NCBI RefSeq assembly: GCF_027359415.1
Contig: NZ_CP114780.1
Coordinates: forward strand, 930,001-994,000
Source of the DNA: Prochlorococcus marinus str. MIT 0918
GTDB taxonomy: Bacteria > Cyanobacteriota > Cyanobacteriia > PCC-6307 > Cyanobiaceae
DNA: 64,000 bases
Reading direction: 5' to 3'
Part shown: piece by piece, positions 321-49,036 of the stretch
Layout of the letters: the number at the start of each line of letters is the position of its first letter
Position numbering within the stretch: the stretch's first letter is position 1
Position numbers and translations under genes: made by a program
The notes under the pieces: generated by a model
What the model saw: the letters and a program-made list of their open reading frames with translations, nothing else
Databases searched by the model: none
What the model was told of the DNA's origin: nothing

Positions 321-465
321 TATTAGTAATAGAAACTTGATTGAAATAGAATAAAGAAATAGGGGTGAGATTATTAATCCATCCACACACCATCCACACA
401 TCGCAATATCGCTGAAAACCCATGGCACAACAGGAACCTAACTACTGGCTAATGAAGAGTGAGCC
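321..465 (+). repeat. EVE 5'-end repeat, copy A (leader plus first 15 codons)
   Basis: This 145-base block recurs almost unchanged at 829-973. Its last part, from the ATG at 422, encodes MAQQEPNYWLMKSEP, the start of an EVE-domain protein like the intact one at 7607. The frame then runs into unrelated sequence and stops at 522-524. The upstream part is a non-coding leader with a doubled CCATCCACACA. I read it as a displaced promoter and start region of the EVE gene. The resemblance is visible directly; the mechanism is inferred. Confidence 0.75.
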
Positions 466-828: not shown

Positions 829-973
829 TATTAGTACTAGAAACCTGATTGAAATAGAATAAAGAAATAGGGGTGAGAATGTTAAGCCATCCACACACCA
901 TCCACACATCGCAATATTGCTGAGATCCCATGGCACAACAGGAACCTAACTACTGGCTAATGAAATACGAGCC
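829..973 (+). repeat. EVE 5'-end repeat, copy B
   Basis: This is a second copy of the 321-465 block, equal in length and ungapped by eye, with roughly a dozen substitutions. The ATG at 930 encodes MAQQEPNYWLMKYEP followed at once by TAA, so the copy is dead as a gene. Similarity to copy A ends at the same base, after GAGCC. The two copies flank the DUF3721 gene as direct repeats. Confidence 0.75.
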
Positions 974-1616: not shown

Positions 1617-1646
1617 CCTAACTGACTGGCTAATGAAAACATAACC
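1617..1646 (+). repeat. decayed EVE 5'-end fragment, copy C
   Basis: The sequence CCTAACTGACTGGCTAATGA matches the CCTAACTACTGGCTAATGA core of copies A, B and F with one inserted base, which destroys the frame. It has lost the leader and the start codon. It is read as the oldest or most eroded class of EVE-start remnant. Confidence 0.55.
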
Positions 1647-5202: not shown

Positions 5203-5254
5203 TAATAGAAGCAATGCAACCTAGCTCAAAGGTTTACCCAAACTTTACCCAAAC
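5203..5254 (+). repeat. partial leader repeat, copy E (no EVE codons)
   Basis: AATAGAAGCAATGCAACCTA, then the TTTACCCAAAC doublet at 5233-5254, matches the left half of the 121-base repeats F and G. The right half, including the CGCCC boxes and the EVE start codons, is absent. It marks the left side of the unit holding the 5354 and 5587 genes. Confidence 0.55.
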
Positions 5255-5353
5255 TCCTATTCACTTCAATTAAGAGGAATATTTACTGATCGATGAAACA
5301 TTGAAGATCACTATTACCATGAAATTATTTACTAAATAATTCAAACTTTAAAA

Positions 5354-5590
5354 ATGCTTCGATTACTACTTCCATTAGTCGCTGCCCTAGCTCTACCTAT
5401 TGGTGTTATTGCTCATGAGAAGCCACATAAGGTGGTTTGGATGGTTCTTAATCTGAAACAGGGGGGAGGGGTAGTTGTAATACCAACGGCGTCATTGGCA
5501 CAATGTAATGCGGAAGGATCAATTGTAATTGAATCTCGTGAACTCAGTTTGAGAGGGAAGGGATATGAATGTGTGGAGGGCGTCCGTTGA
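5354..5590 (+). CDS. small secreted protein with two cysteines
   Basis: This 78-residue protein has a signal peptide (MLRLLLPLVAALALPIGVIA, cleavage near AHE). The mature domain has cysteines in AQCNAEG and, at the end, GYECVEG. This spacing (C-x2-G ... G-[FY]-EC-[IV]-EG) is shared by many small exported picocyanobacterial proteins of unknown role; a single disulfide is likely. Its TGA overlaps the TTG start of the next gene, so the two are cotranscribed. Confidence 0.65.
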   Translation: MLRLLLPLVAALALPIGVIAHEKPHKVVWMVLNLKQGGGVVVIPTASLAQCNAEGSIVIESRELSLRGKGYECVEGVR

Positions 5591-6117
5591 AAAAGGGATT
5601 CACTTTTTTACCTGTTTTGTTTCTCTTAGCTTTACCTGTTAAAGCAGATTTCGGTGATGCTGATTTCCCTGTTGAATTATTGATGGGAGGACCAAAGAGT
5701 TATCACGATGCTTGGTGCGGACGTCTCAATAATGAATGCCGTGTTCGATTTCAAGGCCCAATGATGTGGGTTGAAGGCCAAGGTGGAATCAAATCCTCGC
5801 AATACATAGAACATACCTATAGCAAAGAGTGTAAGGGTGACCTTTTCAGGAATTGTGGAGCGCATTTCCACTACATCACTTACAAGTCAGATCAAGGGCC
5901 AAATATTCGGCAAGCTCTTTTCTTATTCTCCAGCGGGAGAGCACAAGCTGAATTCTCAAAAGCCTTGAGAAGATGGAAGTCGCAATCAGAGAATGTCTTC
6001 CCTAACTATCGACTACCCGCCAGCCAAGGTCCTCAAGACACACAAGGTAGAGATAAAGGTTTAAATCCTTACGACTATCCCCCTATTACTGACTGGTCAG
6101 AAAAGACCACGGATTAA
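5587..6117 (+). CDS. secreted cysteine-containing protein, paralogue of the 6364 gene
   Basis: I choose the TTG at 5587, which overlaps the upstream stop (TTGA), because it gives a proper signal peptide (MKKGFTFLPVLFLLALPVKA); the ATG at 5569 would add six residues that spoil it. The mature domain has WCGRLNNECRVRF, a GGIKSSQYI segment, a second cysteine pair and LRRW. This matches the protein at 6364 in order and spacing (WCG, C-x-V-x-F-x-G, GI-x-x-S, C...C, EF...L.R). The C-terminal 40 residues are proline-rich and unique. Function unknown. Confidence 0.65.
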   Translation: MKKGFTFLPVLFLLALPVKADFGDADFPVELLMGGPKSYHDAWCGRLNNECRVRFQGPMMWVEGQGGIKSSQYIEHTYSKECKGDLFRNCGAHFHYITYKSDQGPNIRQALFLFSSGRAQAEFSKALRRWKSQSENVFPNYRLPASQGPQDTQGRDKGLNPYDYPPITDWSEKTTD

Positions 6118-6163
6118 GTCGATCAATGCTTCCGAAATCAAAAGCCATGGGAAGGTTGAGCGA

Positions 6164-6284
6164 CAATAGAAACACTTAGATACTGAGCTCAACGGCTTAC
6201 CCAAACTTTATCCAAACCGCCCATTTTCGCCCAAACCCCTTGATATGACTAAACCTAACTACTGGCTAATGGAAAGCGAGCCTG
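6164..6284 (+). repeat. EVE 5'-end repeat, copy F (121 bases)
   Basis: The block is alignable without gaps to 7280-7400, with about 20 differences by eye. In order it contains AATAGAAACA, a TTTACCCAAAC-type doublet (6196-6217), two CGCCC boxes, CCTTGAT, and an ATG at 6245 encoding MTKPNYWLMESEPDV. That frame ends at a TAG at 6305-6307, giving a dead 20-codon stub. The intact EVE gene has similar bases just before its ATG. This is the copy whose coding similarity runs a few codons further than the rest. Confidence 0.75.
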
Positions 6285-6363
6285 ACGTTTGTACCCCAAA
6301 AAGCTAGTGATGCCAATTGATTTAGCCCTTTTTTTGCTGATTTCTCTTTACTTTTGAAGTGAT

Positions 6364-6777
6364 ATGCGCCATTTGCTACTTGCACCGCTAATAATTGGGC
6401 TTTCGTCTCCTGCACTAGCCGATTTAGGTGAGGCTGAACTTACTGAGTTCCAAACAAGAACTTTTGATGTGTGGTGTGGGCAAAGGTATAAGGATTGCGA
6501 AGTTACGTTTACAGGAGAACGGTTAAAAGTTAATGCTGGTAAAGGGATTACACCCAGTTCAATTCTTTTAACACAAGAAGATAATTGTGGAACTTTTTAT
6601 TACTGTGCCCGTTTCACGGTTACTTATCAGAAAGCAAATGGCTCGAAAGCAAATGGGAAATTCCTTATGCAAAACCACCACACAGTCAGAGAGTTTCGAC
6701 AAGAATTGGAGAGATTTACTGGTAGAGAGATTGGAGCTGCGAAAACTATTGATATAGAAGAGACTAGAAACAAATGA
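6364..6777 (+). CDS. secreted cysteine-containing protein, paralogue of the 5587 gene
   Basis: This 137-residue protein has a signal peptide (MRHLLLAPLIIGLSSPALA). The mature domain begins DLGEAEL, comparable to DFGDADF in the 5587 protein, and keeps its WCG...C-x-V-x-F-x-G core, the GITPSS loop, two later cysteines and an EFRQELERF end. Four cysteines suggest two disulfides. The stop overlaps the next ATG (ATGA), so the pair is translationally coupled. Function unknown. Its presence in two neighbouring units suggests cargo duplication followed by divergence. Confidence 0.65.
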   Translation: MRHLLLAPLIIGLSSPALADLGEAELTEFQTRTFDVWCGQRYKDCEVTFTGERLKVNAGKGITPSSILLTQEDNCGTFYYCARFTVTYQKANGSKANGKFLMQNHHTVREFRQELERFTGREIGAAKTIDIEETRNK

Positions 6778-7247
6778 TTAAACGGTTACTTCTCCTACCT
6801 CTAATACTTGGTGTGATCTCTCCTGTTCTAGGCGAAGTCAATCCAAGCATTCATAAGAAGTGTCTTCAAGCGAAAGATTATCTGGGTTGCGTAAAAGCAA
6901 TGTCAGGGGAAGAGTTAAAGAGGAACCAAGTATCTAAGAATGGGAATACATGTCCTACTGGTTATGCCTATATAGGTCAAGGATATTGTCGAGAAGTTAT
7001 ATGTCGAAATTGGGGAAGTGGCCTGACTAATAATCCACTAGTTGCAGGAAAAAAGTGGCGATGTCAAAGAATGGGAGCAGGTAAATTAAATTTGGACTTA
7101 GGAGATTCCATAAAGATCGGAAACAATACTAAATGTCCTACTGGTGAACCAAAGATTGGGTGGAATAGTACATGTGATAAGCCTTATAAAGAGCCGCCCA
7201 AGAAAGATAGAAGCTATGGGAAAGTTATTTTAAATCTTGTTTTATGA
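6774..7247 (+). CDS. secreted cysteine-rich protein
   Basis: This 157-residue protein has a signal peptide (MIKRLLLLPLILGVISPVLG) and then IHKKCLQAKDYLGCVKAM, a motif that recurs in exported marine cyanobacterial proteins. About ten cysteines follow in CPTGYAYIGQGYC- and CPTGEPKIGW-type repeats, suggesting two small disulfide-bonded modules. The tail is basic. It is coupled to the preceding gene by ATGA. Function unknown; a cell-surface or periplasmic role is inferred from the export signal. Confidence 0.65.
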   Translation: MIKRLLLLPLILGVISPVLGEVNPSIHKKCLQAKDYLGCVKAMSGEELKRNQVSKNGNTCPTGYAYIGQGYCREVICRNWGSGLTNNPLVAGKKWRCQRMGAGKLNLDLGDSIKIGNNTKCPTGEPKIGWNSTCDKPYKEPPKKDRSYGKVILNLVL

Positions 7248-7279
7248 AACGCTTAATCCTTCCAGCCTCAAACGCGAGG

Positions 7280-7400
7280 CAATAGAAACAACAAAACCCC
7301 TAGATCTAAGGTTTACCCAAACTTTACCCAAACCGCCCTTTTTCGCCCAAATCCCTTGATATGACTGAAATTAACTACTGGCTAATGAAAAGTGAGCCTG
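7280..7400 (+). repeat. EVE 5'-end repeat, copy G (121 bases)
   Basis: The layout is that of copy F, with an exact TTTACCCAAAC doublet at 7312-7333, CGCCC boxes and an ATG at 7361 encoding MTEINYWLMKSEPAF. The frame stops at 7427-7429. Beyond GAGCC it shares ATACCAA with copy A at the same spacing. The spacer to the right (7401-7606) carries the tRNA fragment and then the intact EVE gene. Confidence 0.75.
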
Positions 7401-7448
7401 CTTTTATACCAATCGATCTCAGCTTTTGATCAAAATCCATTCGAACCA

Positions 7449-7484
7449 TATTCGAACCTGCGACCTATTTGCTCCCAAAGCACT
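7449..7484 (-). pseudogene. tRNA-Pro(UGG) fragment
   Basis: On the minus strand the sequence reads TGCTTTGGGAGCA, the anticodon arm of tRNA-Pro with UGG in the loop, and then GGTCGCAGGTTCGAAT, the variable region with the T-stem and T-loop. The closing T-stem strand, acceptor stem and D-arm are missing, so it is not a functional tRNA. Partial tRNAs of this kind mark integration sites of genomic islands in Prochlorococcus and other bacteria. No integrase is in the window. Confidence 0.6.
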
Positions 7485-7606
7485 AGATCGACTAAAAGCA
7501 CAAACCATATAATTGAGCAAGAATAGAAAAGAGAATGCAGGCAATTCTTAGGTCTTCGTACCAAAATAGCCTAAAGTATCACAATTAAACGCCGAAACTC
7601 CTTGCT

Positions 7607-8080
7607 ATGACTGAAGAAACTAGGTATTGGCTAATGAAGAGTGAGCCTGATGTATATGGAATTAAAGAACTTGAGAAAGAGAAAGAAACACTTTGGGATG
7701 GCATTCGTAACTATCAAGCTAGAAACTTTATGAGAACAATGGAAATTGGAGATAAAGTATTTTTTTATCACTCCAACTGCAAGCCTCCTGGGATAATAGG
7801 ACTTATGGAAGTAATAGCAATTAATCAAATTGATCCTACACAATTTGACCCTAATTCAAAATATTTTGATCCAAAGTCAACAAAAGAAAATCCTAGATGG
7901 GATTGTGCGAAATTGAAGTATCTAAAAGAGTATAAACAGCTTTTAAGTTTAAAAGAAATTGCGAATCAATTTAATGATAAAGAGTTGATTCTTGTAAAAA
8001 AAGGTAACAGATTATCTATTCTTCCTATAGTTCAAGCAGTAGCAGAAAAATTAATTATAACTCTAGAAAAAAGTGAATAA
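7607..8080 (+). CDS. EVE-domain protein (thymocyte nuclear protein 1-like)
   Basis: This 157-residue protein starts MTEETRYWLMKSEPDVYGI and contains WDGIRNYQARNFMR and GDKVFFYHSNCKPPGIIGL, the diagnostic motifs of the EVE fold. EVE domains, relatives of PUA and YTH domains, bind modified bases in DNA or RNA; in bacteria they occur alone and with restriction or toxin systems. Length is normal for the single-domain family, so the gene is intact. Its first 10-15 codons recur six times upstream. The bases before its ATG (CGCCGAAACTCCTTGCT) resemble those of copies F and G. Confidence 0.85.
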   Translation: MTEETRYWLMKSEPDVYGIKELEKEKETLWDGIRNYQARNFMRTMEIGDKVFFYHSNCKPPGIIGLMEVIAINQIDPTQFDPNSKYFDPKSTKENPRWDCAKLKYLKEYKQLLSLKEIANQFNDKELILVKKGNRLSILPIVQAVAEKLIITLEKSE

Positions 8081-45763: not shown

Positions 45764-46909
45764 ATGAATAATCCCCCTAATTCAAGATTAAGAAAAATGA
45801 GGACCTGGACTCCAGGGGCCAGTCTAGGAGAACTTATTGGCCCTCTTGAGAACAAAAAAAGACTCTCATTGATTGATCTAGCTAGCAATGATTATTTAGG
45901 GCTAAGTCAAAATCCAAGGCTTATTGAAGCAGCCAGAAGAACAATGATTGAAGAAGGAGTAGGTGCTGCAGGATCCCGATTCATAACAGGCAGTCGCCCA
46001 ATACATAAAAAACTAGAAGAAGAGTTGAGTAAATGGCTGGGCTTTGAAAAAGTATTTCTTTTCCCTAGTGGATTTCAAGCCAATTTAGCTGCAGTAAGTC
46101 TTTTGGCAAATCGAAAAACAACTGTAATAACAGACAGATTGATTCATAATTCACTATTAACAGGTGTAAAAGCAAGTGGTGCAAAGTTAAAAAGATTTGC
46201 CCATAACAACCTTGAAGATCTAGAAAGATTAATCCAAAACTGTTTAAAACAAGAACAAAGTCAACCTCCTTTAGTCATTACTGAAAGTCTCTTCAGCATG
46301 GAAGGCACTAGCCCTAATCTGAAAAAGATGGCGGTCTTGTGTCAAAAATATCAAGTTATGCTTTTAGTAGATGAAGCTCATGCTCTTGGAGTAATCGGTA
46401 ATAAAGGCAAAGGACTATCTCATGAGATATCAGCTCCAATAACAATGATAAGTGGAACTTTTGGTAAAGCCTTTGGTAGTGGAGGAGCTTTTCTAGCAAC
46501 AAATCAACTACTGGGCGAAAACTTAATCCAAAAAAGTGGTGCTTTTCGTTACACCACAGCCCTTGCACCTCCTTTAGCAGGAGCTGCGCTAGAAGCATTA
46601 AACCTTATTCAAGAAAATCCAGATTGGATTACAAATCTTCAAAGGAAATCAAAATCTTTAAGATTAAAACTTTTCAAACAGGGCTGGGAAATTCCTGAAG
46701 GAAATGGACCCATAATTCCAATTATTTTTGGAAGTGATCAGGCCTCGCTGGATAAGCAACTTGAACTAGAATCAAAGGGATTATTAACCGTCGCAATAAG
46801 GCCTCCTACTGTCCCAGAAGGAAGTGCACGCCTCAGAATTGTAGTGAATAGAACTTTAAGTGAAGATACTTTGAATAAATTACTTTTTCATCTCGGGCAA
46901 AGGCAATGA
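45764..46909 (+). CDS. bioF: 8-amino-7-oxononanoate synthase
   Basis: The 381-residue PLP enzyme has LASNDYLGLSQNPRL, GSRFITGSRPIHKKLE, LLVDEAHALGVIG and the PLP lysine in SGTFGKAFGSGGAF. It condenses pimeloyl-ACP with alanine, the first step of biotin ring formation. It leads a five-gene biotin operon; its stop overlaps the next ATG by four bases. Confidence 0.94.
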   Translation: MNNPPNSRLRKMRTWTPGASLGELIGPLENKKRLSLIDLASNDYLGLSQNPRLIEAARRTMIEEGVGAAGSRFITGSRPIHKKLEEELSKWLGFEKVFLFPSGFQANLAAVSLLANRKTTVITDRLIHNSLLTGVKASGAKLKRFAHNNLEDLERLIQNCLKQEQSQPPLVITESLFSMEGTSPNLKKMAVLCQKYQVMLLVDEAHALGVIGNKGKGLSHEISAPITMISGTFGKAFGSGGAFLATNQLLGENLIQKSGAFRYTTALAPPLAGAALEALNLIQENPDWITNLQRKSKSLRLKLFKQGWEIPEGNGPIIPIIFGSDQASLDKQLELESKGLLTVAIRPPTVPEGSARLRIVVNRTLSEDTLNKLLFHLGQRQ

Positions 46910-47619
46910 ATCAAATTATTGCTATGCATGGGTGGTGCGGTGACAGTACCTTTTGGGAAAATTGGGAAGATCACTTTAAGTTAAATGGTTGGCAATGGAG
47001 AAATTCTGAAAGAGGGTATGGCCATCTCACGCCTTCAGAGCCGTTTTGGATGGTGAATGCTCAAGAAAATCATCTAACCAAAAAGGTTATTTTTTGCCAC
47101 TCACTAGGAATACATCTAATATCAAGCAAAGTCCTGAAAGAAGCCTCTCACATTGTTTTATTAAATAGTTTTAGTCGCTTTATCCCTAAAGGTAGAGAAA
47201 GTAGATCAATAAAAACCGCTCTGAATGGAATGCAAAAACATTTAAATAAAGCAACTGAAAGAGCTATGCTTTTAAAATTCATTCAAAAAGCAAATCAACC
47301 CTATAAAGAAAACTATTGGCTACCAGAACTCTTGAAAAATAGTCTCTCACCAAAAGGTCGGAAAATGCTAAGTCAGGACTTAGAGTTATTAATTAATACC
47401 AAAGGCTTGCCACCTGCCTTCCCAAAAACTGGACGAGTGCTAGTAATTAATGGAGGCAACGATCATATATTGAGCTCTGTTGCCAGATCTGAACTTTTAG
47501 ATGATTTATCAAACCACCTTAATCAGTCACCTCTGAATTGGATTATAAAAGATGAAGGACATAACATCCTTTGTATTGACTTGGTCGACAGAATAAATAA
47601 CTGGTTGAAAGCAAATTAA
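46906..47619 (+). CDS. bioK: BioK-type pimeloyl-ACP methyl ester esterase
   Basis: The 237-residue alpha/beta hydrolase has an oxyanion-side MHGWCGDSTFWENW, nucleophile serine in FCHSLGIHLISS and a catalytic histidine in DEGHNILC, with an aspartate in NGGNDHIL. Marine picocyanobacteria use BioK in place of BioH to release pimeloyl-ACP from its methyl ester. Position between bioF and bioC with overlapping ends strongly supports this role. Confidence 0.82.
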   Translation: MNQIIAMHGWCGDSTFWENWEDHFKLNGWQWRNSERGYGHLTPSEPFWMVNAQENHLTKKVIFCHSLGIHLISSKVLKEASHIVLLNSFSRFIPKGRESRSIKTALNGMQKHLNKATERAMLLKFIQKANQPYKENYWLPELLKNSLSPKGRKMLSQDLELLINTKGLPPAFPKTGRVLVINGGNDHILSSVARSELLDDLSNHLNQSPLNWIIKDEGHNILCIDLVDRINNWLKAN

Positions 47620-48374: not shown

Positions 48375-49036
48375 AATCTCCATGTTTTCGTCTAATAGTT
48401 TGTGGAACAGATACAGATATTGGGAAGACTGTAGTCAGTAGTCTTCTAGTGCAAGGTTTAGATGCAATGTATTGGAAGCCTATTCAAAGTGGTTTAGAAA
48501 ATGGTGGTGATACAAATACAGTACGCACACTCTTAAATCTTACAAAAGATAGATTAATCCCTGAAAAATATAGGTTTAAGGCGGCAGTATCACCTCATTG
48601 GGCAGCAGAACAAGAGAATACAATAATTAAACATAAAAATATTATATTACCTTCAGTAAAAAAAACTTTGATAATAGAAATGGCTGGTGGGGTAATGGTT
48701 CCATTAACTAGAAAATATCTTCAAATTGATTTATTAAAGAATTGGATGCTCCCAGTTATTCTTGTTGCAAGAAGTGGTTTAGGCACACTCAATCACACAC
48801 TTTTAACCATTGAAGCATTAAAGAAAAGAAACATCCCAATTTTAGGACTAATCCTGAATGGTGAACTTCACAAAGACAACCCAAAAACATTAGAGCAAAT
48901 GGGAGGAGTACCAGTTATTGCTCAGTTACCAATACTAACCAAACTTTGTAGAGAAACGCTTGCCGATCAATGGATCAACCAAAATCTAGATGAAACATTT
49001 AAAAAACTTCTTGTCTCTAATCTTTCAAAACTTTAA
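48371..49036 (+). CDS. bioD: dethiobiotin synthetase
   Basis: The 221-residue protein starts at the ATG overlapping the bioC stop (ATGA), which puts the P-loop CGTDTDIGKTVVSSLL near the N-terminus as in the family; the frame extends to 48326, but that start would lie within bioC. Other motifs: YWKPIQSGLENGGDT, IEMAGGVMVPL, and a nucleotide-base region LILNGE. It forms the ureido ring of dethiobiotin from diaminopelargonate, carbon dioxide and ATP. Confidence 0.92.
   Translation: MKSPCFRLIVCGTDTDIGKTVVSSLLVQGLDAMYWKPIQSGLENGGDTNTVRTLLNLTKDRLIPEKYRFKAAVSPHWAAEQENTIIKHKNIILPSVKKTLIIEMAGGVMVPLTRKYLQIDLLKNWMLPVILVARSGLGTLNHTLLTIEALKKRNIPILGLILNGELHKDNPKTLEQMGGVPVIAQLPILTKLCRETLADQWINQNLDETFKKLLVSNLSKL

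Follow-up and report, generated by a model that had tools for sequence, protein, structure and literature searches.

Here we present a 34-base fragment of tRNA-Pro(UGG) in Prochlorococcus marinus str. MIT 0918 that, judging from its sequence, was probably once the core of an attachment site for tRNA-Pro(UGG)-targeting elements and has since been worn down; it lies in an island that related elements appear to have built by insertion at the 5' end of an EVE-domain gene. The genome of this strain (labelled G000) consists of one contig of 1,789,313 bases, and the window, the whole stretch of 64,000 nucleotides that was analysed, comprises its bases 930001-994000. The main repeated site of the locus, which the original prediction had missed, is the start of the EVE gene and not a tRNA. 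The features of the window on which the analysis rests are as follows:

7450..7483, minus strand: tRNA-Pro(UGG) fragment, 32 of 34 columns identical to the genome's own tRNA-Pro (genome-wide E 3.3e-7)
7439..7458, plus strand: direct-repeat pair with an 11-bp period, ATTCGAACC-AT-ATTCGAACC, the second word being also the tRNA T-loop
7484..7606, plus strand: putative element right end (type A upstream sequence), now the EVE upstream region, with homology to G003, G009, G013 and G014
7607..8080, plus strand: intact EVE-domain gene, 157 aa (PF01878, E 2e-51)
7625..7647, plus strand: EVE core in the intact gene (codons of YWLMKSEP), a putative attachment site
7376..7398, plus strand: copied EVE 5' core (TACTGGCTAATGAAAAGTGAGCC), the left boundary of a 249-bp unit
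6260..6282, plus strand: copied EVE 5' core with its own upstream right end
1624..1646, plus strand: copied EVE 5' core, degenerate, followed by a repeat pair at 1684-1708
951..973, plus strand: copied EVE 5' core, with a repeat pair at 887-908 upstream
443..465, plus strand: copied EVE 5' core, with repeat pairs at 379-400 upstream and 506-526 downstream
7312..7333, plus strand: repeat pair with an 11-bp period, TTTACCCAAAC twice, upstream of the core at 7376
5233..5255, plus strand: repeat pair with an 11-bp period, TTTACCCAAAC twice, the word identical to the others, with no recognisable EVE core alongside

The fragment covers the anticodon arm to the T-loop. In the 34-column alignment with the resident tRNA-Pro(UGG) gene (G000:C1:48855-48928, minus strand), the two differences, one substitution and one inserted base, both fall in the variable region. 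The anticodon arm, variable region and T-loop had been claimed for the minus strand by the original prediction, with the acceptor and D arms gone, and both statements are borne out by the alignment; neither ARAGORN nor Rfam called a tRNA at the fragment, as is expected where those arms are missing. A whole-genome search with the fragment returned the tRNA-Pro gene and, at E 1.1e-6, a second copy of the tRNA-Pro 3' end (46922-46953). Among 31 of the 39 tRNA genes of the genome, tRNA-Pro gave a local score of 56 and the runner-up, tRNA-Asn, 33. The best of 500 single-base shuffles scored 30, so that the predicted better-than-random match to the resident tRNA-Pro holds; a comparison of 2128 other tiles of the window with Pro and Asn alone gave no score above 24. 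Also, the exact 15-mer TTCGAACCTGCGACC occurs at four sites in the genome, namely the tRNA-Pro gene, its 3'-end copy, the fragment and a tRNA-Asn gene at 1403383; the reversed pattern gave no match in the genome, even with 2 mismatches. Thirty-four bases is short, and a chance similarity might be suspected, but the E-value and the shuffles rule this out for practical purposes, and the stretch recurs in the relatives G003 and G007, the latter carrying an identical 33-base stretch when the sequences are compared by eye. About 9 of the 34 bases (ATTCGAACC) are common to a direct-repeat word with an origin of its own; the remaining 25 or so, together with the identical stretch in G007, still make the fragment tRNA-Pro. 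The fragment is a genuine piece of tRNA-Pro(UGG), and the observation is confirmed.

Partial copies of tRNA-Pro are common in the genus. In G000 itself, 47 bp of the tRNA-Pro 3' end (48853-48899 in the gene) are repeated exactly and directly at 46907-46953, 1.9 kb away. The two repeats enclose a fatty-acid desaturase gene (PF00487), and the segment 46907-48899 (locus L047) is a candidate for a small element of the tRNA-Pro kind. Across the genus loci, a core pattern identified 10 full tRNA-Pro genes and 24 partial copies, the window copy falling outside these 24 owing to its inserted base. In all 24, the tRNA is lost on its 5' side 0-6 bases from CCCAAAG, and in the window copy after 3. At the other side, readable in 23, at least 25 of the 29 bases of the 3' end are kept in 17 copies and not in 6; truncation is therefore not confined to EVE fusions. 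Where the 3' end is retained, the common order on the antisense strand is a repeat pair, a CCTTGAGATCC-like block and the tRNA 3' end. An exact repeat pair of period 11 or 12 lies within 110 bases of 12 of 20 tRNA-Pro cores, and CTGAGATCC (up to 1 mismatch) lies near 15 of 31 complete tRNA-Pro 3' halves, full genes and viral contigs counted in. Furthermore, the 33-base tRNA-Pro 3' half is present in nine viral contigs, some of which carry, by eye, repeat pairs and GAGATC-type blocks while others resemble full tRNA genes. The comparison suggests that tRNA-Pro-type elements are present in the virus-classified contigs L164, L165, L168 and L169. Inspection of these four by eye showed tRNA-Pro 3' halves with repeat pairs, and also GAGATCCC blocks in L165, L168 and L169.

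The window copy thus matches the resident tRNA better than chance and shares its boundary with other element-borne copies, as would an attachment-site copy. An exact match to one end of the tRNA, which the original prediction had named as a further sign, is absent from the window copy, which stops in the T-loop and reaches neither end; such a match was found only in relatives, where a complete tRNA-Pro 3' end stands at the homologous place in G014 (contig C34) and near-complete ends, short of exact, in G013 (C35), G014 (C15) and G016. Given the 5'-side boundary common to all 24 partial copies and the 3' ends at the homologous place in G013 and G014, the fragment is best read as a relic attachment-site copy. 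Together with the 47-bp repeat elsewhere in the genome, the same evidence upholds the predicted link between the locus and tRNA-Pro-targeting elements.

The second component of the island is the start of the EVE gene. Copied WLMKSEP codons are spread over 40 kb upstream of EVE in G000, all co-oriented. With a pattern of 20 bases and up to 3 mismatches, applied to 14 genus genomes, the forward matches in G000, with EVE itself counted, numbered 12 and all fell at 898-938 kb, the single reverse match lying at 1752 kb. Each of the 14 genomes had 3-13 matches, and the reversed control gave 1 in total. At 2 mismatches, 130 of 151 family genomes have at least one match, the reversed control none; most of these matches are presumably to the EVE gene. 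Outside the genus, two matches or fewer are the rule, as against 10 in G016 and 6 in G051, so the arrays are a feature of the genus and a few others. A search of IMG/VR with the EVE core returned one match, L160; its context is without such ends, and it was rejected as an EVE-site element and read as chance.

The EVE frame is without stops in 14 of 14 genus genomes, and the N-termini before WLMKSEP vary. In 13 of 91 genome pairs the 110 bases preceding the EVE core are 0.80-0.95 identical, above the EVE coding identity of 0.71-0.84 (gaps counted); in the other 78 pairs the upstream identity is not above that of the coding sequence, and the medians over all 91 pairs are 0.55 upstream and 0.73 for EVE coding (gaps counted). 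The upstream DNA thus falls into a small number of types, within each of which the similarity exceeds that of the gene downstream. These types and the varied N-termini fit elements that bring the gene start with them. Consensus scans of 7200-7700 for sigma-70 promoters and terminators found none (shuffles gave 1.1 and 0.5), and such scans miss other promoter types.

An integrase lies within the same island. The 517-aa ORF at G000:C1:908998-910551, 27 kb upstream and outside the window, was recognised as an integrase by PHROGs (phrog_1, E 2.6e-14), only part of the island ORFs having been searched. Against PF00589 it scored E 5.9e-5 and 23.3 bits, compared with a Pfam cut-off of 27.1, and it was absent from the matches of a whole-genome PF00589 search. 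Relatives of this integrase are found in 48 of 300 family genomes. Twenty loci were retrieved and 17 examined; in 12 of these, from 12 genomes, an EVE core lies 98-223 bases before the divergent tyrosine recombinase. The core is exact to the pattern in 9 and has 1-2 mismatches in 3. A repeat pair follows it in all 12, with period 11 in 11 and period 12 in one, 7 pairs being exact and 5 having one mismatch in 10. As for the five remaining loci, L190 is limited to residues 113-517, L193 begins at residue 25, and L196-L198 are more distant, at 48, 40 and 39% identity. Ten of ten aligned integrases (L182, L183, L185-L189, L191, L192 and L195) have a Ser, in GMSPEEI or a close variant, at what we take to be the expected position of the first catalytic Arg of the recombinase. 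A PDB sequence search with the integrase profile gave no recombinase match. The predicted structure is of low confidence (mean pLDDT 61.2, pTM 0.38), and the fold search with it, in which the top five were recombinases (Cre-type, XerA, integrase N-terminal domain), all at E 0.065 or above, was not relied on. Among viral contigs in IMG/VR, 96 pattern stretches yielded 0 integrase relatives.

The G000 unit at 908.9-916.2 kb (908904-916205, locus L148) has the same repeat word at both ends and encodes the integrase, a PrsW-type protease and a DnaB-type helicase; with these matching ends and this gene content, it looks like a complete EVE-site element. EVE cores bound both this unit and a unit at 29.3-38.7 kb in G007. 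From this anatomy and the proximity of the integrase we infer site-specific recombination at EVE, the 5' end of the gene serving as attachment site and each insertion supplying a new gene start.

The array, in which units of unrelated small genes follow one another in the same orientation with a conserved site at their boundaries, also recalls the cassettes of an integron, the EVE 5' core taking the part of the cassette site. In such an array the integrase would sit at a fixed platform, but here it lies inside the units next to the core and is accompanied by 11-bp repeat pairs; when 3 integrases were compared with NCBIfam, one had a weak XerA/integron-model match only (E 0.0074, 15.9 bits against a cut-off of 220). 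An integron is thus highly improbable. It might also be supposed that the copied EVE starts arose passively, by replication slippage or homologous recombination with no integrase involved, and that the fragment is incidental debris. Repeats do favour recombination, and searches with four island ORFs of the window (5354-7247) brought up no mobility family; the ORFs gave no Pfam match, and one weak PHROGs match was to a family whose function is unknown there. These four ORFs are small, with signal-peptide-like starts by eye. Against a passive origin, which we regard as improbable, stand the integrase genes 98-223 bases from the core at 12 of the 17 loci, the upstream and downstream ends that differ among the EVE-start copies, and the clustering of repeat pairs at those ends.

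This clustering was quantified in 27 loci (409,483 bases) chosen for EVE or tRNA-Pro copies, counting exact direct repeats of at least 8 bases. There were 94 at a distance of 11, 31 at 12, and 3-22 at each other distance from 7 to 20. Thirty-six of the distance-11 pairs lie upstream and 25 downstream of EVE cores, 8 lie beside tRNA-Pro cores and 25 elsewhere; of 89 loosely matched EVE cores, no more than 36 are preceded and 25 followed by an exact pair. Of 88 EVE cores, 33 have the CTGAGATCC block, with at most 1 mismatch, in the 50 bases upstream, and 13 have its inverse on the downstream side; the expectation is about 0.006 per site. Within the window, 8 of 9 distance-11-type pairs fall in the first 7.5 kb. 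The paired short repeats may be arm-type integrase sites, and the pair at 7439..7458 in particular is a predicted arm-type site at the left end of an EVE-site element. In G026 and G084, elements that carry an integrase have this kind of pair equally far from a copied EVE start but no tRNA beside it, and the word ATTCGAAC begins 63 bases past the core start both in the window (core 7376, word 7439) and in the integrase elements L186 and L194.

Comparison of the fragment block among relatives indicates how its 3' end may have been lost. The tRNA block is followed by a copied EVE start in G013 and on both contigs of G014 (degenerate in C15); the 260 bases after the G016 block contain none. Whereas these relatives keep the tRNA 3' end, it is replaced in G003, G007 and the window by a pair of the form ATTCGAACnnn-ATTCGAACC, in which the second word is also the T-loop. 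The end would thus be missing because the T-loop word ATTCGAACC has been fused to the 11-bp-period repeat pair. Origin of the pair by duplication of the T-loop was rejected, since integrase elements have the pair in the absence of tRNA sequence. The simplest history is one of fusion at the common word, in which the order of events is a reconstruction from few genomes, several of them fragmented assemblies. With gapped columns left out, the identity to G003 is 0.90 for the repeat pair, fragment and spacer; with gaps counted, the 110 bases that precede the core have an identity of 0.85 to G003 and 0.80 to G009, compared with 0.71-0.72 for EVE coding. The sequence at 7484..7606 is shared with G013 and, in its first part, with G014, and G007 has the left side of the block and the tRNA but not the EVE-side spacer. 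A very short stretch of the spacer beside the core has a weak similarity to the tRNA D-arm region. The description of this unit as the youngest-looking finds no support: it is a 249-bp remnant without cargo, and the block of tRNA and EVE upstream sequence recurs in another genus (G014).

The same features could have arisen had EVE-site elements captured tRNA DNA by illegitimate recombination, the fragment never having been an attachment site. The fusion at the T-loop end is to a brief common word, which resembles microhomology joining; neither tRNA end is present in the window copy, and 6 of the 23 partial copies are without most of the 3' end. Capture does not, however, readily account for G013 and G014, which at the homologous place retain the complete or near-complete tRNA 3' end with a repeat pair and a CTGAGA/GAGATC flank of the kind found at tRNA-Pro attachment copies, and we consider it unlikely, if the least so of the alternatives.

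Under the preferred reading, that of a worn attachment-site core, tRNA-Pro-targeting integrative elements would have left a core that was later worn. At EVE, a tyrosine recombinase would recombine the element site with the WLMKSEP codons, so that every insertion pushes the old EVE start upstream and gives the gene new first codons and new upstream DNA. A right end of tRNA-Pro type would at some stage have become joined to one of EVE type, an arrangement still seen in G013 and G014. In the lineage that led to the window, G003 and G007, a later recombination at the common word ATTCGAACC would have fused the EVE-element repeat pair to the T-loop and thereby removed the tRNA 3' end. EVE cores do occur on contigs with tRNA-Pro copies (G004:C2, G005:C5, G010:C11 and G012:C9), and near-identical EVE left ends lie 1.4 kb (G004) and 2.0 kb (G010) from a tRNA-Pro copy; in the one-contig genomes G000 and G001 none of the EVE cores that match the 20-base pattern lies near the tRNA-Pro gene. 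A search of IMG/VR with the fused arm/tRNA word gave 0 matches. The fragment itself is probably without function now. A tRNA scrap alone is an ordinary relic, and the value of this one would be as a marker of exchange between kinds of elements.

Several known systems share parts of this anatomy. Seven tRNA genes are described for the tycheposons, according to a later paper (PMC10872708). As with these, we find Prochlorococcus islands, tyrosine recombinases and tRNA-bounded elements with cargo; the recombinase here, in the 908.9-916.2 kb unit and its relatives, falls below the Pfam cut-off and outside the window. The main attachment site here, in place of a tRNA gene, would be the 5' end of a protein gene: a tRNA-Pro relic is present, but the repeated site of the island is the EVE start. 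Intergenic partial copies of tRNA-Met in a hypervariable island of Prochlorococcus MIT9313 were described as a putative attachment site in connection with P-SS2 (PMC2784084). The setting resembles ours, but that site involves tRNA-Met and is phage-linked, and the sections of the paper on it mention no copied protein-gene starts (PMC2784084). Insertion at the 5' end of a protein gene is known from IMEVchUSA3 in dusA and the ICE SXT in prfC, with the element-supplied gene start given as experimental for dusA and as reported for prfC in the relevant part of that account (PMC8409611). A core repeat in the 5' coding end at both element ends is likewise found here (the G000 and G007 units), and EVE stays in frame with the element-borne start in all 14 genus genomes. 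The gene is another one, however, and the bacteria are unrelated, and here many copied starts stand in tandem over tens of kb, with apparent exchange with tRNA-Pro elements. Tn916 has 11-bp direct repeats, and elements of the Tn916/Tn1549 type, whose integrases have an N-terminal arm-binding domain, are not known to target one gene. The paired repeats near the element ends resemble arm-type sites such as theirs in arrangement; for Tn1549, the arm-binding domain of the integrase and 11-bp inverted ends have been described (PMC5871717). In literature searches on Prochlorococcus with the EVE domain, islands or attachment sites, nothing on EVE appeared by title or abstract start among the matches listed; we do not claim its absence from print.

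More broadly, and tentatively, we propose that a picocyanobacterial element family may target WLMKSEP, the best-conserved codons close to the EVE start, replacing the EVE upstream region and N-terminus at each insertion and building tandem islands, and that the word of its arm sites, which is ATTCGAAC in one class, matches the tRNA T-loop, so that tRNA-targeting and EVE-targeting elements could exchange ends, the fragment being a fossil of that exchange. This proposal is plausible, with the odds somewhat against it in the full form given here. If it is right, a large hypervariable island of Prochlorococcus would have a definable entry site and enzyme, making its gene turnover testable, and mobile elements would serially replace the start of a conserved gene. 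It would also provide a sequence route by which hybrids could form between elements with different targets, a tRNA and a protein gene.
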